A program made the translations under genes and the position numbers. 26,953 bases of DNA, taken from positions 1-26,953 of the IMG/VR virus record IMGVR_UViG_3300048597_000077; one strand, written 5' to 3'. The notes beneath the pieces were generated by a model that was not told the origin of the DNA, searched no databases, and saw only the letters and a list, made by a program, of their open reading frames with translations. Positions 5,339-26,953 of the stretch are shown here, one piece after another. This DNA is from a virus. Position 1 is the stretch's first letter; each line of letters opens with the position of its first letter.

Positions 5339-5767
5339 ATGGCCGGACCCGGCAAGAAGCCCAGCCACCTGAAAGCGGTGGCCGGCACTGAGCGCAAGGA
5401 TCGCGCTGCGCCGCCGCCCGTGGACATTCCGGCCATAGAGTCGGTGCCGGATGCGCCCGACTGGCTACTCAACGCCCACGCGGTGAAGGAGTGGATGCGC
5501 CTGGCGCCGATCCTGACCGCCAACAAGCTGCTGACCGCGGGGGGCCTGAGCGCCCTGGGCCAGCTCTGCAACCTCCACGGCGAGATCGTTCGCCAGACCT
5601 CCGTCGGCATGATGCCGCCCGCGCACCTGTTCGCGCAGTACCGGGCCTTCGTGAACGACTTTGGCTTGACCCCGGTCGCCCAGGGAAAGGTTCGCCCGAG
5701 TGCCGAAAAGGAAACCCCCGGCGGCAAGTTCGCCGGCATCGGCAAGCGCCCGCCCGCGGGACGCTGA
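5339..5767 (+). CDS. Terminase small subunit, P27 family
   Basis: A 142-residue protein from the ATG at 5339, with TTAGGA seven bases upstream. The start MAGPGKKPSHLKAVAGTERK, then a helical core (DWLLNAHAVKEWMRLAPILT, LLTAGGLSALGQLCNLHGEI) and the SAEKETPGGKFAGIGKRP end are typical of P27-type small terminases (Terminase_4). The small subunit recognises the packaging site and hands DNA to the large subunit. The C-terminus overlaps the TerL start by 68 bases in another frame. Confidence 0.9.
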   Translation: MAGPGKKPSHLKAVAGTERKDRAAPPPVDIPAIESVPDAPDWLLNAHAVKEWMRLAPILTANKLLTAGGLSALGQLCNLHGEIVRQTSVGMMPPAHLFAQYRAFVNDFGLTPVAQGKVRPSAEKETPGGKFAGIGKRPPAGR

Positions 5768-7451
5768 CGGCGAGGTCGATTTCGTCCGCATAGCGGACGA
5801 CTACGCGGCCGAGGCGGCGGCAGACAAGAAAGGCAGGAAGTTCGGCAAGTGGGTGCGGCTGGCGGCGCGGCGGTACATCGCCGACCGCAAGCGGGCCCGG
5901 GCCAAGGGTGCGCCGTTCCGGTTCGACCCATGGGCCGCCTGCGACCCGTGCCGGTTCCTTGAGTGCCTCCCGCACGTAGAGGGCACCTGGGGCACGGAGA
6001 CCATCGAGCTGCACCCGGCGCATGTCTTTGCGACGGTGAACATCTTTGGGTTCCGCAACCTGGACGGGTCGCGGCGCTTCACCGATGCGCTGTTCGCGGT
6101 GGCCCGCAAGAACGCAAAGAGCACCTGGGCGGCCGGTGTGGCGCTCTACTGCCAAACTTGCGAGGGCGAGGTGGGGCCGCAGGTGATCTCGGCGGCCACC
6201 ACCGGCAGCCAGGCGCGCATTGTCTGGAGCATCGCAAAGCGGCAGGTCGAGCGGACGCTGGAGCTGAGGGACGCCTTCAACCTGGAGGCCTTCGCCAATT
6301 CCATCGCCAGCTGGAAGAACGGCGGGTCCTTCAAGCCCATCAACGCCAAGGCATCGACGCAGGACGGCCTCAACCCGAGCTGCGTGGTGCTGGACGAGCT
6401 GCACGCCCACAAGACCCACGACCTGCTCAACGTCCTGAAGTCGGCCGCCGGCGCCCGTCGCTCGCCGCTGTTCCTGCTCACGACGACCGAGGGCTACGAG
6501 TCCCCCGGGCCGTGGGCGGAGGAACGCAAGTTCGCGCAGCAGGTGCTCGAAGGCGCGGTCGAGGCTGACCACTACTTCGCGGTGATCTACGCGCTGGACG
6601 ACAAGGACGACCTGTTCAACCCGGCGGTGTGGATCAAGGCCAACCCGCTGATGGACGTGAACCCGGTGCTGGCTGAAAAGCTGCGCACCGACGCCATCGA
6701 GGCCAAGGCCAAGCCGGGCAAGCTGGCCGAGTTCAGCATCAAGCGTTGCAACCGGCCGGCGGCGAGCGCCAGCAGCTGGGTGGATCTGCCGCGGTGGATC
6801 GCCTGCGATGGCGCGGTGGATCTGGACTGGCTGGCGGGCTACCCCTGCACGGCGGCGTTCGACCTGTCGAGCACCACCGACCTCACGGCCTGGCGGCTGG
6901 TGTGGCGGGTGGAGGGCAAGACCTACACCTGGGGCCGGCGCTGGGTGCCGCAGGACGCGGTGGCGCAGCGGTCGGTACGCGGGACGGTGCCCTACCAGGC
7001 CTGGGTGGCTGGCGGGCACATGACCCAGACCGAGGGCGACGTGGTGGATTACGCCGTGGTCGAGGCGGCCATCCGGGCAGACGTGGAGCGGTTCAAGCCC
7101 ACGGTGATCGCCTACGACAGCTGGAACGCGCAGGACCTGGTGAACCGCCTCACGGCGGACGAGCTGCCCCTGGTGCAGTTCATCCAAGGCCCACGCAGCT
7201 ACCACCCGGCCATGCAGGAGCTGGAGCGGATCTATCGCGGCGGGAACCTCTGCCACGGTGGCGACCCGGTGCTGCGCTGGTGCGCGGCCAACCTGGTGGC
7301 GCGCTCCGACGCAAACCTCAACACCGCGCCGGACAAGAAGCGCAGCGCGGAAAAAATCGACGACATGGTGGCGCTGCTGATGGCGCTCGGCGTGTCCCTG
7401 ACCCCGGGTGACGACGGGGACTACATAGACGAAATGGTGATGGGAATCTAA
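5700..7451 (+). CDS. Terminase large subunit
   Basis: A 583-residue packaging motor of the Terminase_1/HK97 type. The ATPase domain has a Walker A variant ARKNAKST (135-142), Walker B VVLDELH (229-235) and the coupling motif LLTTTEG (259-265). The nuclease domain shows the expected acidic residues: D388 (AFDLSSTTD), D473 (AYDSW) and D554-D555 (KIDDMV). It pumps DNA into the prohead and cuts concatemers. GTG 5700 is chosen because the conserved segment DFVRIADDYA...WVRLAARRYIAD begins before any later start. The Walker A has Ala where Gly is more usual. The TAA overlaps the portal ATG. Confidence 0.95.
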   Translation: MPKRKPPAASSPASASARPRDADGEVDFVRIADDYAAEAAADKKGRKFGKWVRLAARRYIADRKRARAKGAPFRFDPWAACDPCRFLECLPHVEGTWGTETIELHPAHVFATVNIFGFRNLDGSRRFTDALFAVARKNAKSTWAAGVALYCQTCEGEVGPQVISAATTGSQARIVWSIAKRQVERTLELRDAFNLEAFANSIASWKNGGSFKPINAKASTQDGLNPSCVVLDELHAHKTHDLLNVLKSAAGARRSPLFLLTTTEGYESPGPWAEERKFAQQVLEGAVEADHYFAVIYALDDKDDLFNPAVWIKANPLMDVNPVLAEKLRTDAIEAKAKPGKLAEFSIKRCNRPAASASSWVDLPRWIACDGAVDLDWLAGYPCTAAFDLSSTTDLTAWRLVWRVEGKTYTWGRRWVPQDAVAQRSVRGTVPYQAWVAGGHMTQTEGDVVDYAVVEAAIRADVERFKPTVIAYDSWNAQDLVNRLTADELPLVQFIQGPRSYHPAMQELERIYRGGNLCHGGDPVLRWCAANLVARSDANLNTAPDKKRSAEKIDDMVALLMALGVSLTPGDDGDYIDEMVMGI

Positions 7452-8722
7452 TGGGCGCACTCGACAAGATGCTGGGTGCGGTCGGCCTTTCCCGGCGATC
7501 CACGCTCGCCACCCCTGAGTCCTGGATGTGGGAGGCGCTGGGCGCTTCCCGTACCGGGTCCGGCGTGGAAGTTTCGCCCGAGTCGGCCATGCGCCTGAGC
7601 CCGGTGTGGGCCTGCGTCCGGCTGCTCTCGGAGACCACCGCCACGCTGCCGCTGCATGTGTACGAGCGGCAGGAAGGCGGGCTGGGCAAGCGGGCCGACG
7701 ACAGCGCCCAGGCGCAGCTGATGGCGCAGCCTTCGCCCATGCTGACCGGCGTGCAGCTGCTCGAAGTGATGATGGGCCACGTGCTGCTCTGGGGTAATGC
7801 CTACGCGGCAATCCTGAGAAACGGCAGCGGCCAGCCCATCGAGATCGTGCCGATCCTTCCGCAGTTCGTCCGGGTCTACCTCACCGAGGCCCGCCGGCTG
7901 GTCTACGACGTGGTGCTGCCGGGCGACAACCTGCCCGTGCGCATGGACCAGGCGGACGTGATTCACGTGGCAGGCCTGAGCTTCGACGGGATCAAAGGCC
8001 TGAGCGTGGTCCGCTACGCCGCCCAGTCCATCGGGCTGGGCATCGCGGCCGAGACCTACGGCGCCAACTTCTTTGGCAACGCCTCGCAGCCTGCGGGCTT
8101 CATCAGCGTGCCGGAAAAGCTGACCAAGGAACAAGCCGAGACCCTGCGCAGCCAGTGGCAGTCGATCTATGGCGGGCTCGGTGGCGCGCACAAGACGGCC
8201 GTAATCCCGAACGGTGGCAAGTTCGAGAAAATCACCATCCCGAACAACGAAGCGCAGTTCCTCGAATCCCGCAAGTTCCAGATCACCGACATCGCCCGCT
8301 GGTTCCGGGTGCCGCCGCACATGATCGGCGACCTTGAGCGGGCCACGTTCAGCAACATCGAGCACCAGTCCCTTGAGTTCGTGCAGCACAGCATCCGGCC
8401 CTGGCTGGTGCGCATCGAGAACGAACTCAACCGCAAGCTGTTTCCCCCGGTGGCCGTCGCCCTGCGCGGGGACGCCATCGAGACCGCCCCGAGCCCGTAC
8501 TACTTCGAGTTCACGGTCGAGGGCCTGCTGCGGGGCGATCAGAAGTCCCGATCCGAGTATTACGTCAAGGCCCGCCAGTGGGGCTGGCTGAGCGTGAACG
8601 ACATCCGGCGACTCGAAAACATGCCGCCCGTAGAGGGCGGAGATACCTACCTCACCCCGCTGAACATGCAGCCGCTGACGGCCTCGGGTGATGCACCAGA
8701 AGGTGACCAAGATGAACCCTGA
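7451..8722 (+). CDS. Portal protein, HK97 family
   Basis: A 423-residue protein of normal HK97-portal length. Recognisable segments are AMRLSPVWACVRLLSETTAT near the N-terminus, LLEVMMGHVLLWGNAYAAIL, the IHVAGLSFDG stretch, FQITDIARWFRVPPHMIGD and the helical NIEHQSLEFVQHSIRPWLVR. Twelve copies form the ring through which DNA enters and leaves the head and to which the connector binds. It lies in the standard order TerL-portal-protease-capsid. Confidence 0.95.
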   Translation: MGALDKMLGAVGLSRRSTLATPESWMWEALGASRTGSGVEVSPESAMRLSPVWACVRLLSETTATLPLHVYERQEGGLGKRADDSAQAQLMAQPSPMLTGVQLLEVMMGHVLLWGNAYAAILRNGSGQPIEIVPILPQFVRVYLTEARRLVYDVVLPGDNLPVRMDQADVIHVAGLSFDGIKGLSVVRYAAQSIGLGIAAETYGANFFGNASQPAGFISVPEKLTKEQAETLRSQWQSIYGGLGGAHKTAVIPNGGKFEKITIPNNEAQFLESRKFQITDIARWFRVPPHMIGDLERATFSNIEHQSLEFVQHSIRPWLVRIENELNRKLFPPVAVALRGDAIETAPSPYYFEFTVEGLLRGDQKSRSEYYVKARQWGWLSVNDIRRLENMPPVEGGDTYLTPLNMQPLTASGDAPEGDQDEP

Positions 8723-9447: not shown

Positions 9448-10737
9448 ATGAGCATCAAGCTGAACCAGCTCCGCGACCTGCGGAACAACGCTGTCAAGGA
9501 AATGCGCGACCTGCACGAGGCGGCCGAAAATGAGAACCGTGGGTTCTCGGCCGACGAGCTGCAGAAGTTCAACACCGCCCGCGCCAGCGTGGACGACATC
9601 GAAGCCCGCATGAAGCGCGAGGCCGAGCTGTCCGATGCCGAGGCCGCCAACGCCAAGGCCGTGGAAGGCACCCGCGAGGACGCCGACGCCCGCGCCGCCA
9701 TGAAGGGCCGCGAAGCCCCGGCCACCGCCTACGACAAGGCCTTCCGCAACTACCTGCTCAACGGCCAGCAGGGCCTGAGCAACGAGGAGCGCGGCCTGCT
9801 GTCCGAGAAGCGCGACCTCTCGCTCACCCCCGCGTCCGGTGGCTTCACCGTTCCGCAGGGCTTCTACGCGACCTTGGTCGAGGCGCAGCGTGAGTACGGC
9901 GCGTTTCTGAACCCGGGCGTGGCCACCATCCTCGACACCGACTCGGGCAACCCGATGCCGGTCCCGCTTGAGGACGACACCGCCAACGCCGCGCAGATCG
10001 TGGCGGAAGCGGCCTCGCTCACCACCTCCACCGACGCGGTGTTCGCCAACATCACCCTGGGCGCCTTCACGTACCGCTCGCTGGTGCGCGTCTCGCTCGA
10101 GCTGCTGCAGGACTCCGCGTTCGACCTGGAGGCCTACATCGCCCGCAAGCTGGGCATCCGCCTGGGTCGCGGCTTTAACGCGGGCGCCACGGTGGGCACC
10201 GGCACCGGCCAGCCGGCCGGCCTGTTCAACGCCACGGTGGGCGCAAACATCGGTGTGACGGCCCCGACCGGCAACACGGTGAACTTCCCGTACCTGTCGC
10301 TGGTGGACCTGGAGCACTCGGTGGACCCGGCCTACCGCCGCAACGCCCAGTGGATGTTCGGTGACGGCGTGCTGCAGGCCCTCAAGCGCCAGCTGGACTC
10401 GCAGAACCGCCCGATCTGGCAGCCGAACTTTGGCACCAGCACGGACGGCAACAGCCCGTTCACCGCGTTCCCCGGCACCATCCTGGGCTACCGCTACACC
10501 ATCAACCAGGACGCTCCGGTGCAGGCCGCCAACGCCCGCGCTCTGGCCTTCGGCGATATGAGCTACTACATGGTGCGCCGCGTGCGGAACATGATGCTCA
10601 TCCGCGCCGACCAGCGCTTCATCGACCAGGGCCAGATCGGCTTCTACGTGTTCGCCCGCCTCGATGGCCGCTTCGCCAACCCGACCGCGGTTGCGGCTCG
10701 CTCGCCGATCCGTCTGGGCCAGAACTCCGCGACTTAA
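9448..10737 (+). CDS. Major capsid protein, HK97 family
   Basis: A 429-residue protein with GGAG nine bases before the ATG. Residues 1 to about 115 are charged and helical (LRDLRNNAVKEMRDLHEAAE and on), the delta domain that acts as scaffold and is removed by the protease. The body starts near LSLTPASGGFTVPQGF and contains the usual HK97-fold stretches FTYRSLVRVSLELLQDSAFD, RRNAQWMFGDGVLQALKRQL and a C-terminal FYVFARLDGRFANPTAV. It builds the icosahedral shell. The closest matches I would expect are HK97/phiC31-type capsids with no separate scaffold gene, and none is seen here. Confidence 0.95.
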   Translation: MSIKLNQLRDLRNNAVKEMRDLHEAAENENRGFSADELQKFNTARASVDDIEARMKREAELSDAEAANAKAVEGTREDADARAAMKGREAPATAYDKAFRNYLLNGQQGLSNEERGLLSEKRDLSLTPASGGFTVPQGFYATLVEAQREYGAFLNPGVATILDTDSGNPMPVPLEDDTANAAQIVAEAASLTTSTDAVFANITLGAFTYRSLVRVSLELLQDSAFDLEAYIARKLGIRLGRGFNAGATVGTGTGQPAGLFNATVGANIGVTAPTGNTVNFPYLSLVDLEHSVDPAYRRNAQWMFGDGVLQALKRQLDSQNRPIWQPNFGTSTDGNSPFTAFPGTILGYRYTINQDAPVQAANARALAFGDMSYYMVRRVRNMMLIRADQRFIDQGQIGFYVFARLDGRFANPTAVAARSPIRLGQNSAT

Positions 10738-19889: not shown

Positions 19890-20293
19890 GTGCCCTGGTG
19901 CAGGCCGCGCGCCGGTACGTCGGCGTGCGCTTCGTCCACCGTGGGCGCCGGGCCGACAAGCTCGACTGCGCCGGGCTGGTGCTGCGCGCCTACGCCGACT
20001 GCGGCGTGGTGCTGCCGGCCCCGCCTGAGAACTACGGCCGCGAGCCGCAGCTCGACACCTTCATGGCCGCCATCGTGGCCGCGCTGGGGCCTGCCGTGCC
20101 CGGCCCGGCGCAGGTGGGCGACGTGGTGACGTTGCGTACCGCGCAACACCCGCATCACGTGGCCTTCGTCGGGGACTACCCCGGCGGCCTGTCCCTGGTG
20201 CATGCCAGTGGCGAGCACGGACGCGTGGTGGAACACCGCCTGTCCCCCGAATACCTCGCCCGCATCGTGACCATCCACCGGAGGCCCGTCTAA
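19886..20293 (+). CDS. NlpC/P60 tail peptidase, GTA gp14-like
   Basis: A 135-residue protein from the ATG at 19886. The Cys-His catalytic layout is visible: C28 in LDCAGLVLRAY, H90 or H91 in HHVAFVGD, and a third polar residue near H106. NlpC/P60 enzymes cut peptidoglycan peptides. In the gene transfer agent the equivalent sits in the tail tip and helps DNA cross the cell wall. Its place between hub genes agrees with that. Confidence 0.9.
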   Translation: MSALVQAARRYVGVRFVHRGRRADKLDCAGLVLRAYADCGVVLPAPPENYGREPQLDTFMAAIVAALGPAVPGPAQVGDVVTLRTAQHPHHVAFVGDYPGGLSLVHASGEHGRVVEHRLSPEYLARIVTIHRRPV

Positions 20294-23200
20294 TGGGTGT
20301 GCGCAACATCCTGACGGGCGCGGGCGCCGTTGTCGGCAGCTTCTTTGGCCAGCCGCAGCTTGGCCTGGCCATTGGCTCGCTGATCGGCAACATCGTGGAC
20401 CCCCAGCGCATCAAGGGGCCGGCGCTGAAGGAGTTCCCGGTGCTGGGCGTCACCGAGGGCGCGTACCGCCAGGTGGCCTACGGCACCACCATCATCCGCG
20501 ACTGCCAGCTGATCGACTGGGGCCCGCTGGACCCGGTGATCGTGGAGGAACAGCAGGGCAAGGGTGGCGGGCCGGTGGTGGACCCCCAGCGCCTGTACCA
20601 GACCTACGCCGTGGCCATCGGCGAGCCCATCGAGGCCGTGCGCTACATCAAGCGCGACGGCGTGATGGTGTACGACCTGCGGCCCGGCAGCACCATCCTG
20701 CCAGAGTCGGCGGACTTCGCCGGCCGGCTGCGCATCTACCTCGGCGACGAGGCCCAGCTGCCCGATCCCGACCTCGAGGCCCTACCCAACAACGGCGTGG
20801 GCAATACCCCGAGCTATCGCGGCACCTCGTACTTCGTGGTGGTGCGCGACGACCTGACCGACCTGGGCGGGCGGATTCCGACGTATGAGGTGGAGGTCCT
20901 TCGCACCGTTGGCAGCGTGGTCTCCAACGTGACGCTGGCCACAAACTTCGACTACTACTCGGGCAGCCCCGACGCGCTTCAGGTCGAGACCACCATGGGG
21001 TGGGCGGCGGGTATTGAAGTGGTGGCGGTTTCCCCGAACGGCCTCTACGCGGTGGGTTCCGACCCTACGTCTGCGTCGGCGGATCGCTTCGGGTTTCGGA
21101 AGTTCGATCCGGTCACGGGCACTTGGTCCACCTTGGGCGTCCCCGGGGGAGATATGACCCGCGGCCCGCGCGCCATGGCTTGGCACCCGTCGAGCCAGTA
21201 TGTGGCGATCTGCGGCATCAACAACGCAAGTTCTCAGGACTGGCGGGTCTACAAAGTCGTGGCCGACGAGTTGGTGGTGATCTCGGAAGCCTCCGCTTAC
21301 ATGAACGCCACCTGCGAATCGGTGGCGTGGAACGATGACGGTGACCTGCTCGCGGTCGGGAACACGAACAGCGGTCAGGTGTTGGGTATCTATGATTTCG
21401 ATGCCGGCTCGGGCGCCATTACCAACCTTCGGCAGCTCAACGGCACGCCGGGCCCGTTCGGGGGCCTAGCCAAGCACATGGATTTCCAGCCCGGCCCGAA
21501 CCCACGCTACCTGGTGTTCGCCAGCACCAGTTATCTGCACGTTGTGGACATCCTGAACGATCCAATCGACGAGGCATGCTGGGTCAGCACCGCCGCCATC
21601 CGGCCCTTTTGCGCATGGACCGCCGACGGTGCGCACGTCGTCGCCATTGAGGATGTCTCGACCCCCTTCGATGTTGGCGTCTGGGAGTTGGCGGGCGGCG
21701 TGGGTCTTGAGGCTTTGGCGCGGGTCAGTTCGGCAGCTTCTCCACCGAGCGGTCGCGTCGGAGGCGCCATGTTGAACCCTGCTCGGACTCACCTGGCGGT
21801 TGTGATTGATACCCTGTCGGTGATCCCGCCCGAGATTTACAGCCTCTCCACCGCTGTCCCGCCGGTCCTGACCAAGCTCTCGAACCCTGCCGCGGGTGGC
21901 GGCCTACTGCGGTCCGCGTCCTGGGCGGCCACGGCTTCGCTGCCTCAGTACGAGGACAACGCCGTGCCGCTGTCCACCATCGTGGCCGACATCGCCGACC
22001 GCTGCGGCATCCCGGCCAGCAAGCTGGATCTGAGCGAGCTCACCGACGAGGTGAAGGGCCTCACCCTGGGCGGCCAGTACGACGGCGCCGGGGCCATCAC
22101 CACGCTGATGCCGCCCTACTGGTTCGACCTGTACGAGGCCGACAAGGAAGTGCGGGCGCCGAAGCGGGGCGGGGCGGTGAAGGCCACCATCACCGAAGCG
22201 GACCTGGTGGAGGACATCGACGAGAACGCCCTGCGCGGGCAGGACATCGAGTATCCCCGCAAGCTCCAGCTGAAATACCTCAACCCGGGCCAGAATTACG
22301 CCGCCCCGGCGGCCGTGTTCGCGCGCACCACCCCCGACGTGCGGGTGCGTGGCGAGGCGAACATGGACCTGCCCATCTGCATGGACGAAACGCAGGCCCT
22401 CCAGACGGCCGAGCGGATCCTCAAGGTGATGTGGGAGGATCTCAACGGCGAGGTGACCTTCAGCCTGCCGGCCGGCCCGTTCGCCTGGCTGGCGCCCACC
22501 GACTGTCTGGGCCTGAGCATCCGGGGCGCCTTGTTCCGCATCCGGGTGGAAAAGGTGGAGGACGTGGACGGCGTGCTCAAGGTCACGGCCCGCCGCGACC
22601 GGCAAAGCGCCTACACCAGCGTGCTCACCGCCATCCCGCTGCCGCCGCCGGAAGGCCCGCCGCCGAGTCTGGCCGGCATCACCCAGTTCGTGGTGCTCAA
22701 CGGCCCCGGGATCATCGACAGCGACGACCGGCTGGGCGTGCGCATCGGTGTGTGTGGCCTTCCGGGCACGGCATGGTCGGGCGCCACCGTGCGCTACAGC
22801 ACCGACGCCGGGGCTACTTGGACCACCGCCGCCACCCTGCGCACCGCCGCGCGCCTGGGCACGCTCACGGCCGCGCTGCCGTCGAACCTGGCCGGCTACA
22901 CCGACGCCACCAACCCGCTGCAGGTCTTGATGGTGGACGACCGCCAGCTCGAGGCCATCACCGACCTGCAGCTGCTGCAGGAGGGCAACGGCGCGGCCAT
23001 TGCCCGGGCGGACGGCACGTGTGAGGTGCTCCAGTTCCGAGACGTGACCGACAACGGGGCGCGGTCTTGGACGCTGCGCCACATGCCCCGGGGCGGGTTG
23101 GGCACCACGGCGAGCGCGCACTCCATCGGCGCCAAGTTCGTGATGCTCGATGGCACCGAGTTCGTGCCCCTGCCGTCGGCGCTGATCGGGCAGACGCTGC

Positions 23201-23565
23201 GGTTCCAGTTCGTGAGCCTGGGCACCAGCCCCGAGACCGCGCCGATCTTTGATCTGGTGTGGAACCCGGCCGTGGCGCAGACCGAGTTCCCGCCGGCCTC
23301 GCTGCGGCTCACGCGGGGCAGCGGCACGATCTCGGCCACCTGGGCACCTCGCCACCGCTTTGGCATCGACACCCTTCCGGTGGCCTCGGTCAACTTCACC
23401 GGGTGGCGCGTGACGCTCACCGCCGGGCTGGTCACGCAGGTGCATGACGTGCTCGCGCCCAACTTCAGCGGGTCGGACGCTGCGTTCACTGGCGCCATCA
23501 CCGTCACCGTCCAGCAACTCAACCGCTTCACGGGCGCAGGCCCGGGCACTTCTGGGGTTATCTAA
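20293..23565 (+). CDS. Large tail hub/fibre-base protein, GTA gp15 (megatron)-like, with inserted beta-propeller
   Basis: A 1090-residue protein. Residues 1-45 contain a hydrophobic Gly-rich stretch (VVGSFFGQPQLGLAIGSLIG), then about 45-205 and 555-750 fit the phage-tail_3 type hub domain (PVLGVTEGAYRQVAYGTTII; LKYLNPGQNYAAPAAVFART). Residues about 230-545 are an insert with seven evenly spaced motifs of the type h-x-V-A-W-x-P-x-G-x-x-h-A-V, at residues 241, 292, 341, 393, 437, 489 and 539, which predicts a seven-bladed WD40-like propeller. The C-terminal part (about 750-1090) is made of beta domains. Hub proteins of this kind carry receptor-binding parts; the propeller may serve that or protein-protein contact. 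Codon use changes inside the insert. Confidence 0.88.
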   Translation: MGVRNILTGAGAVVGSFFGQPQLGLAIGSLIGNIVDPQRIKGPALKEFPVLGVTEGAYRQVAYGTTIIRDCQLIDWGPLDPVIVEEQQGKGGGPVVDPQRLYQTYAVAIGEPIEAVRYIKRDGVMVYDLRPGSTILPESADFAGRLRIYLGDEAQLPDPDLEALPNNGVGNTPSYRGTSYFVVVRDDLTDLGGRIPTYEVEVLRTVGSVVSNVTLATNFDYYSGSPDALQVETTMGWAAGIEVVAVSPNGLYAVGSDPTSASADRFGFRKFDPVTGTWSTLGVPGGDMTRGPRAMAWHPSSQYVAICGINNASSQDWRVYKVVADELVVISEASAYMNATCESVAWNDDGDLLAVGNTNSGQVLGIYDFDAGSGAITNLRQLNGTPGPFGGLAKHMDFQPGPNPRYLVFASTSYLHVVDILNDPIDEACWVSTAAIRPFCAWTADGAHVVAIEDVSTPFDVGVWELAGGVGLEALARVSSAASPPSGRVGGAMLNPARTHLAVVIDTLSVIPPEIYSLSTAVPPVLTKLSNPAAGGGLLRSASWAATASLPQYEDNAVPLSTIVADIADRCGIPASKLDLSELTDEVKGLTLGGQYDGAGAITTLMPPYWFDLYEADKEVRAPKRGGAVKATITEADLVEDIDENALRGQDIEYPRKLQLKYLNPGQNYAAPAAVFARTTPDVRVRGEANMDLPICMDETQALQTAERILKVMWEDLNGEVTFSLPAGPFAWLAPTDCLGLSIRGALFRIRVEKVEDVDGVLKVTARRDRQSAYTSVLTAIPLPPPEGPPPSLAGITQFVVLNGPGIIDSDDRLGVRIGVCGLPGTAWSGATVRYSTDAGATWTTAATLRTAARLGTLTAALPSNLAGYTDATNPLQVLMVDDRQLEAITDLQLLQEGNGAAIARADGTCEVLQFRDVTDNGARSWTLRHMPRGGLGTTASAHSIGAKFVMLDGTEFVPLPSALIGQTLRFQFVSLGTSPETAPIFDLVWNPAVAQTEFPPASLRLTRGSGTISATWAPRHRFGIDTLPVASVNFTGWRVTLTAGLVTQVHDVLAPNFSGSDAAFTGAITVTVQQLNRFTGAGPGTSGVI
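20980..21930 (+). other. Beta-propeller insert with deviant codon use
   Basis: Within the hub gene, codons such as GGT, GTT, GAT and TTG become common here, while the flanks use almost only C or G in third position. The insert borders match the edges of the propeller motifs and suggest a domain gained by recombination. Confidence 0.65.
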
Positions 23566-26107: not shown

Positions 26108-26497
26108 ATGCTGACCCCCGCCCAGATCCTGCTGCTGATCCGCGTCGTGCTGGTGGCCCTGGTGCTGGCCGCCCTGCTCGGGCTGGGCTGGTACTACCGG
26201 AGCGCCGTGGCGCGTGCCGAGCCGGCCGAGGCGGCGCTATCGGAGGCCACCGCCACCGCCCAGGCCACCACGGCCACCACCGGCGCCCTGGGCGAGGCCC
26301 AGACCGACACCCAGCGCGTGGAAGTCGTCGTCACCCAGGGCCGCGCCGCCGCCGCCCAAGCCGTCCAGGAGCTTTCCAATGCTGACCCGTCTGTTCGTGA
26401 GCTTCGCGCTCTGCCTATCCCTGACCAGCTGCGCGACATCGCCCGCCAGCGACGTGAGGCCCGCGACCGACCTGCAGGTGCTCCGGCTGGGGGTTGA
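26108..26497 (+). CDS. Rz-like i-spanin
   Basis: A 129-residue protein from the ATG at 26108 with TAAGG five bases upstream. Residues 6-30 are an N-terminal membrane helix (ILLLIRVVLVALVLAALLGL), then a long Ala-rich helix with alternating charges (RAEPAEAALSEATATAQATT and on) and a C-terminal LRDIARQRREARDR. This is the usual plan of inner-membrane spanins, which join the outer-membrane partner to break the outer membrane. The last 119 bases overlap the Rz1-like gene in another frame, as in many phages. Confidence 0.8.
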   Translation: MLTPAQILLLIRVVLVALVLAALLGLGWYYRSAVARAEPAEAALSEATATAQATTATTGALGEAQTDTQRVEVVVTQGRAAAAQAVQELSNADPSVRELRALPIPDQLRDIARQRREARDRPAGAPAGG

Positions 26498-26723
26498 TGC
26501 CCTGACCCAGCCGCGCCTGCCGGCCGGCGACGTGCAGCGGCTGGAGGATGCGGCCACGGTCGGCCAAGCCTGGGACTACGCCGCCGACCTCGAGGACGCC
26601 CTCTGGCTGAGCAACCGCGACAAGGCCAACCTGCGCGAGTTCGTGACCAAGGCCAGCGCGGCCATCGAGCAGTCCCGGCTTCCGGCCTGCCGGTGGTGGC
26701 AGCGGAAGGGCTGCCGGCGGTAG
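26379..26723 (+). CDS. Rz1-like lipoprotein o-spanin
   Basis: A 114-residue protein from the ATG at 26379 with AGGAG six bases upstream. It has a lipoprotein signal (MLTRLFVSFALCLSLTSC, lipobox LTSC) so the mature protein would begin at C18 and sit in the outer membrane. The mature part is helical (GDVQRLEDAATVGQAWDYAA, NLREFVTKASAAIEQS) and ends with CRWWQRKGCRR. It is longer and less proline-rich than lambda Rz1, closer to larger o-spanins. The overlap with Rz is out of frame. Alternative: an unrelated phage lipoprotein. Confidence 0.7.
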   Translation: MLTRLFVSFALCLSLTSCATSPASDVRPATDLQVLRLGVDALTQPRLPAGDVQRLEDAATVGQAWDYAADLEDALWLSNRDKANLREFVTKASAAIEQSRLPACRWWQRKGCRR

Positions 26724-26800
26724 GGGTGTGCTCACTGTGCTAACCCGTGCGCCAGAATGGGCCATTTCCTGCCACTCCAGCGCACCCGACCCCAGTAAAT

Positions 26801-26828
26801 ACGGGCCTCTCAGCGGGGCCGGTTTTTT
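26801..26828 (+). terminator. Late operon terminator at the right end of the prophage
   Basis: GGCCTC (26804-26809) pairs with GGGGCC (26815-26820), with one T-G pair and a 5-base loop; the outer A-T and C-G pairs extend it around one mismatch. Six T residues follow at 26823-26828. The T run touches the tRNA half. It ends the transcript from the late genes and keeps it out of the host. Confidence 0.75.
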
Positions 26829-26865
26829 AGGAGGGGGACGCTCTATCCAGCTGAGCTACGGGGCC
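26827..26865 (-). tRNA. tRNA-Arg(CCT), 5' half only, broken at the anticodon loop; attachment-site end
   Basis: On the minus strand the sequence runs GGCCCCG (acceptor, 26865-26859), TA, GCTC-AGCTGGATA-GAGC (D arm), G, TCCCC (anticodon stem) and CTCCTAA (loop, anticodon CCT at 26831-26829). The 3' stem GGGGA and T arm should follow, but phage sequence AAAACCGG does. So the gene is cut right behind the loop. The prophage probably recombined here. Confidence 0.8.
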
Positions 26866-26875
26866 TGGCCGGCGA

Positions 26876-26881
26876 ATTATC
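26876..26881 (-). promoter_or_regulatory. -10 element of the host tRNA promoter
   Basis: GATAAT on the minus strand ends ten bases before the tRNA 5' end at 26865. A clear -35 is not seen. It would drive the truncated tRNA and then the end of the prophage in antisense. Confidence 0.5.
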
Positions 26882-26902
26882 GCAGAAACCCCGCGGCCGG
26901 CC

Positions 26903-26953
26903 CTACCGTCCGCGCAGCGCGGCCTCGAAGGCCGCCTCCTGGGCGGGCAGGGA
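26903..26953 (-). CDS. Host gene, last 16 codons (partial)
   Basis: The minus-strand frame from the window edge to TAG (26905-26903) reads SLPAQEAAFEAALRGR. It lies upstream of the tRNA and outside the phage, so it is chromosomal. It is too short to identify, and could be a chance frame. Confidence 0.35.
   Translation of the reverse strand, partial: SLPAQEAAFEAALRGR

Follow-up and report, generated by a model that had tools for sequence, protein, structure and literature searches.

Background

Among the 3919 islands reported by Islander, 3760 have a displaced 3' fragment of the transfer RNA (tRNA) gene and 159 a displaced 5' fragment (PMC4383910), so that integration restoring the 5' half is an uncommon kind, already known. 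The displaced-5' islands, for which anticodon-loop sites are one listed class, resemble the locus described here, located at the right end of IMGVR_UViG_3300048597_000077. "The window", as it is called in what follows, is the whole of this 26,953-bp IMG/VR record, a linear prophage fragment. In both cases a 5' fragment of the tRNA gene is displaced, and the 5' part is supplied, or in the window very probably supplied, by the element. Unlike the Islander entries, the window belongs to a siphovirus lineage of Lysobacterales inserted in tRNA-Arg(CCT), and it has relatives, with integrases of one and the same family, which restore the 3' half instead.

Two other systems are comparable. For archaeal pTN3-like elements, expression of the rebuilt tRNA from the integrase promoter has been described, a situation seldom encountered in bacteria (PMC8371274); the window comes from a bacterial phage, in which expression of this kind is proposed tentatively. 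In the tRNA-dependent lysogeny reported for actinobacteriophages (Guerrero-Bustamante and Hatfull 2024, PMC10865867), with suggestive cases in Rhizobium (PMC8631192) and, according to a citation in PMC10865867, Lactobacillus, the phage inserts in a host tRNA gene, as the window phage does in a gene which is here single-copy. The difference is that relatives of the window phage rebuild the tRNA, so that a full replacement tRNA is not needed.

Taken together, the results reported below make it very probable that the window contains the right junction (attR) of a prophage, most likely one using a tyrosine integrase, in the anticodon loop of tRNA-Arg(CCT), and that a phage-borne 5' half rebuilds the gene at the left end, the original being restored on excision.

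A tRNA-Arg(CCT) gene split at the anticodon loop

The initial annotation, made from the sequence alone, described a host tRNA-Arg(CCT) gene cut at its anticodon loop by the prophage end, and this was confirmed. A sequence of 39 nt on the minus strand (26827-26865), reading 5'-GGCCCCGTAGCTCAGCTGGATAGAGCGTCCCCCTCCTAA-3', corresponds exactly to the gene from nucleotide 1 through the anticodon loop; it breaks off at the last loop base (CTCCTAA) and is followed by the phage sequence AAAACCGGCCCC. The bases past the loop, AAAACCGG..., do not continue the tRNA, which would run on as GGGGAAGG. A host 5' half is present with no phage-supplied 3' half beside it, which is not the arrangement of canonical 3'-restoring integration. 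A scan of genome contigs revealed exact matches to the 39-mer in at least 120 stretches, nearly all from Lysobacterales and nearly all running on as GGGGAAGGTC into an intact tRNA-Arg(CCT) gene, which excludes a chance origin of the half. No tRNA was found by ARAGORN over the window, from which the integrase end is missing, nor were an integrase or a second attachment (att) site found in this contig, a prophage fragment.

The junction adjoins the lysis end of a siphovirus-type prophage, of which it is the attR. The loop CTCCTAA (26827-26833, minus strand) likely provides the 7-bp crossover, or overlap, region of the attachment core, as judged from sequence comparison: the identity between host and phage stops here both in the window and in the G393 prophage discussed below, and the loop is common to three further phage loci (L226, L230, L238).

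The flank beyond the half (26866-26953) was aligned to host sequences and matched best the DNA directly upstream of tRNA-Arg(CCT) in Arenimonas, the top loci scoring from 84 to 67, against 40 for the best of 500 shuffled sequences. It possibly includes the last codons of a minus-strand upstream gene, and its outer part, GGGGTTTCTGCGATAATTCGCCGGC, is the version found in A. metalli (L021), Arenimonas sp. (L054) and A. terrae (L068). A -10-like box GATAAT (26876-26881, minus strand; in extended form TGCGATAAT, to 26884), kept at the intact loci of the same three genomes, belongs to the host tRNA promoter, which now feeds the orphan half only; the end of this box accounts for the right coordinate, 26881, given in the initial annotation. 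Since the flank matches those of intact Arenimonas genes, the orphan half and the -10-like box are host DNA and the site is an attR. As initially proposed, only the promoter and the 5' half remain on this side, where the 3' half is not restored. According to the initial annotation, this promoter would also read antisense into the lysis end, where the one terminator-like site detected is on the plus strand, that of the lysis genes. No arm sites were found on the 5' (host) side of the window junction, as expected of host DNA in an attR.

Comparison with an empty site and a count of the gene copies, both suggested as checks in the initial annotation, agree with this picture. The three Arenimonas genomes contain an empty site, with an intact gene behind the same flank, and each has one intact tRNA-Arg(CCT) and one tRNA-Arg(TCT). 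The window terminase had no match in 27 Arenimonas genomes. An Arenimonas-type tRNA-Arg(CCT) locus was also met in a contig labelled as a Rhizobium sp. metagenome-assembled genome (L051, JAIBEO010000217.1), which is probably misbinned.

Relatives carrying a tRNA 5' half

The left end of the window phage lies outside the contig, and information on it was obtained from relatives. In the G393 prophage, which measures 51.5 kb between its att sites, the stretch running from the terminase to the tail tip is colinear with that of the window, the amino acid identity being 23-45%. At its left junction the order is integrase, phage-borne 5' half, host 3' half, with the integrase co-directional. ARAGORN recognizes the hybrid as an intact tRNA-Arg(CCT), the sole intact one found in that genome, and its 3' half is likewise the only CCT 3' half found there. 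Before this 3' half stands a full 5' half whose upstream sequence is non-host, which indicates that the element brought its own 5' half. The DNA common to the left (attL) and right junctions begins at tRNA nucleotide 1 and stops where the loop ends.

The G393 right junction also bears on a quite different explanation, by which the window junction is an assembly join, or its right end is the phage attachment site (attP) instead of host DNA. The window is a contig from a metagenome, ending 127 bp past the junction; however, the genome-assembled G393 attR is built in the same way, being cut at the same base and in the same orientation, with arm sites at the same distances, and the window flank matches Arenimonas tRNA flanks and is free of the arm sites which attP has there. 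This explanation, an assembly join having also been named in the initial annotation as what might undo its proposal, is extremely improbable.

A second relative is an IMG/VR phage (L217/L226), whose right end is 76% identical in nucleotides to the window over 144 bp (window 26727-26865) and which carries the exact 39-nt 5' half between lysis genes and integrase. The main link to these relatives with a complete att region is the tail tip, or host specificity, protein (20293-23565, plus strand), 38% identical over 1134 aa to that of L217 and 33-42%, in two pieces, to that of the G393 prophage. Further relatives (L238, the L239-L241 phage and L244) were found by a search with an integrase alignment. 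In total, the integrase points into a tRNA-Arg(CCT) 5' half in eight distinct elements (L226, L228, L230, L238, the L239-L241 phage, L244, G393 and G002), and in L240 the 5' half is joined to a 3' half to give an intact tRNA. The integrase adjoining att in the relatives is of the PF00589 type; the corresponding end of the window phage falls outside its contig.

Other searches gave no matches: megablast of the window right half against the phage collection, a pattern search of the viral contigs for the window junction, and a query of the viral contigs with the tail-tip protein alone, though L217 later proved to encode a relative of it.

Some of these loci show additional features. In L230 (2975-4019) the integrase frame enters the tRNA 5' half, and the TAG of GGATAG appears to serve as its stop codon. 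An open reading frame (ORF) of L226 (5334-5951), located between att and the integrase and overlapping the integrase end, has no Pfam match and looks HNH-like by eye. Rudaea sp. 3F27F6 (G002) has two tRNA-Arg(CCT) 5' halves 52 kb apart (L019 and L128), both with phage-like upstream sequences, which suggests either tandem elements or a remnant attP.

Putative arm sites and the probable rebuilding of the tRNA

A pair of arm-like repeats, TGTGCT-N3-TGTGCT, is found on the plus strand of the window at 26727-26741 (repeats at 26727-26732 and 26736-26741). In the frame of the tRNA, taking the core CTCCTAA as 0, they read AGCACA at +101 and +92, respectively. The pair is invariant, at the same distance, in an alignment of five right arms, comprising the window and four relatives of the 5'-half type. 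The pairs of 5'-restoring relatives are located at 92/101 (L226 and G393), 93/102 (L230) and 94/103 (L238), while in phages restoring the 3' half at tRNA-Arg(CCT) they are at 104/113 (L171/L182) or 112-115/121-123 (nine loci); these phages have to accommodate the 3' half. On the 5' side, pairs lie near -80/-67 or -71/-59 in 5'-restoring phages, as opposed to about -59/-48 in 3'-restoring ones. By the spacing rule derived in this analysis, the +92/+101 pair of the window is of the 5'-half class; because it sits where the pairs of 5'-restoring relatives sit, a 5' half supplied by the phage most likely rebuilds the tRNA at the left end.

The process would run as follows. The prophage integrates into the anticodon loop of the host tRNA-Arg(CCT), most likely by a tyrosine integrase, leaving at the right end the host promoter-like flank and the host 5' half, parted from its 3' half, as seen in the window. 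The phage attP, to judge from the relatives, would hold its own 5' half, from nucleotide 1 to the anticodon-loop end, on the integrase side. On integration, this half and the host 3' half would be united at the left end into a functional hybrid tRNA; the order expected there is the integrase, then a tRNA-Arg(CCT) 5' half, then GGGGAAGGTCGTACG. The hybrid would be transcribed from phage DNA, either on the integrase transcript or from a promoter that escaped recognition, and on excision the original gene would be regained.

Some observations weigh against this reconstruction. The window includes neither the integrase nor the left end, and its own 5' half would be outside the contig. The arm consensus derives from the sequences compared here, by their position and repetition, and the arm sites are to be taken as putative. 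In L242 and L229 (9389-9427), which have related integrases, the 5' half is on the side away from the integrase, and layout varies in the family. Finally, a consensus scan of the G393 left junction detected no promoter on the tRNA strand before the phage-borne half. One of the two options in the initial annotation was a replacement 5' half, with promoter, at the other end, representing the rarer type of attachment site. The half itself is supported by the colinear G393 prophage and the IMG/VR relatives; the promoter is not, as the half stands directly behind the integrase gene and the G393 scan was negative. The rebuilt tRNA might, tentatively, be transcribed with or behind that gene.

If the tRNA is rebuilt in this way, the phage gains control of a host tRNA by integrating, and the only tRNA-Arg(CCT) of the lysogen would be made from phage DNA.

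A change of repair side within one integrase family

The integrases of 5'-restoring and 3'-restoring phages at this site are about 38-46% identical, which implies that the repair side changed within one integrase family. In the integrase tree, three changes are required by the eight rows in which a 5' half lies on the integrase side, but some branches are long or weakly supported, and the number of switches is not fixed. Around the 7-nt loop, the anticodon stem (CCCC/GGGG) forms a palindrome, which could let one integrase family use either half; palindromic tRNA att sites have been noted in general (PMC8371274).

A wider scenario, about as likely as not, is that the tRNA half supplied by the phage was switched within one integrase family, the arm spacing shifting to accommodate the half carried, while other integrases at the same site stopped rebuilding the gene, their elements carrying a whole tRNA. 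If so, the choice of the tRNA half is a changeable trait linked to arm geometry, which can be read from a single junction.

Elements replacing the whole tRNA at the same site

A tRNA-Arg(CCT) 5' half not continued by a normal 3' half occurs in 14 of 395 genomes of the family. Where both junctions of the Xanthomonas-type cases were found, and likewise in Lysobacter G003 and G006, the tRNA is rebuilt at neither junction, and the junctions share a core of only about 10-12 bp. These elements (L137/L138 in G004, L141 in G005, L164-L168, L134 in G003 and L133 in G006) contain a complete, divergent tRNA-Arg(CCT) about 95-165 bp inside, beside the host 3' half. They fit the description of tRNA-dependent lysogeny (PMC10865867) and are candidates, on the basis of their sequences, for tRNA-dependent integration outside Actinobacteria. 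They may widen its range further in that direction, its prevalence there being an open question according to its describers. The tRNA-Arg(CCT) site offers a natural series, from 3'-restoring to 5'-restoring to whole replacement, on how and why repair strategies change.

Because whole replacement does occur at this site, the window prophage might similarly destroy the tRNA and carry a complete replacement elsewhere in its genome. This is improbable, since the replacement-tRNA integrases, where found, are of a different family of about 450-470 aa, no protein is common to the window phage and the elements compared, and the junctions of these elements are devoid of the TGTGCT pair. Moreover, no tRNA was seen in the 26.9 kb of the window, though the integrase end is missing, and the colinear G393 does not fit a short core with an unreconstructed tRNA. 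The occupied sites of Xanthomonas and Lysobacter were set aside as models for the window, given their different integrase family, arm sites and proteins. The Xanthomonas replacement tRNA was sought in the viral contigs and not found.

Loss of the tRNA with no replacement, tRNA-Arg(TCT) reading AGG by wobble, is more improbable still. A tRNA-Arg(TCT) gene was present in seven of the seven genomes tested, and in E. coli AGG can be read by a UCU tRNA whose U34 is modified. Four occupied genomes (G275, G101, G385, G359) yielded no 3' half, possibly owing to contig breaks; against this, the CCT tRNA is restored or replaced in every occupied genome in which the other junction was found. The other option in the initial annotation, a destroyed tRNA with another copy serving AGG, finds no support for the window phage; the tRNA is destroyed at this site by other elements, but these carry a complete replacement. 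Rebuilding with a phage-borne 5' half remains the preferred reading.

The Xanthomonas LMG 31884 element (L137 6775-10999 and 12886-14556; L138 6156-7850) has the look of a mobilizable element and not of a phage, with a MobA/MobL relaxase and a type IV secretion system coupling protein. It also bears a set of genes like those of a cyclic oligonucleotide-based antiphage signalling system (CBASS), namely a patatin effector, a DncV-like cyclase, E1-E2 and JAB. In G272, the integrase of a 9.4-kb element at the same tRNA site (L233 2226-3633 and 4027-9624) is broken into two ORFs, and the element is for this reason probably fixed in place; its tRNA is the sole CCT gene seen, and it encodes a protein of 1866 aa matching PADLOC PDC-S37/Hhe.

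Genes of the window phage

The identified genes are all on the plus strand. The terminase large subunit (5700-7451) is 54-57% identical to terminases of Pseudomonas phages phi2, TC7 and Psp6, the value for phi2 and TC7 being 57%. It is followed by a portal protein (7451-8722; PF04860, E 1e-107) and a major capsid protein of the HK97 type (9448-10737; PF05065, E 1e-53). The gene nearest the junction (26379-26723) is an Rz1-like lysis gene, whose match to PF23793 LysC is weak (E 1.2e-5; 25.5 bits, below the cut-off of 27). An ORF overlapping it (26108-26497), with no Pfam match, is a probable Rz-like spanin, on the grounds of sequence and position. The lysis operon would end at a terminator-like hairpin (26804-26820, plus strand), whose T tail reaches into the att core; it is the only such site found, against 0.2 expected, and its strand is that of the lysis genes which it would serve.
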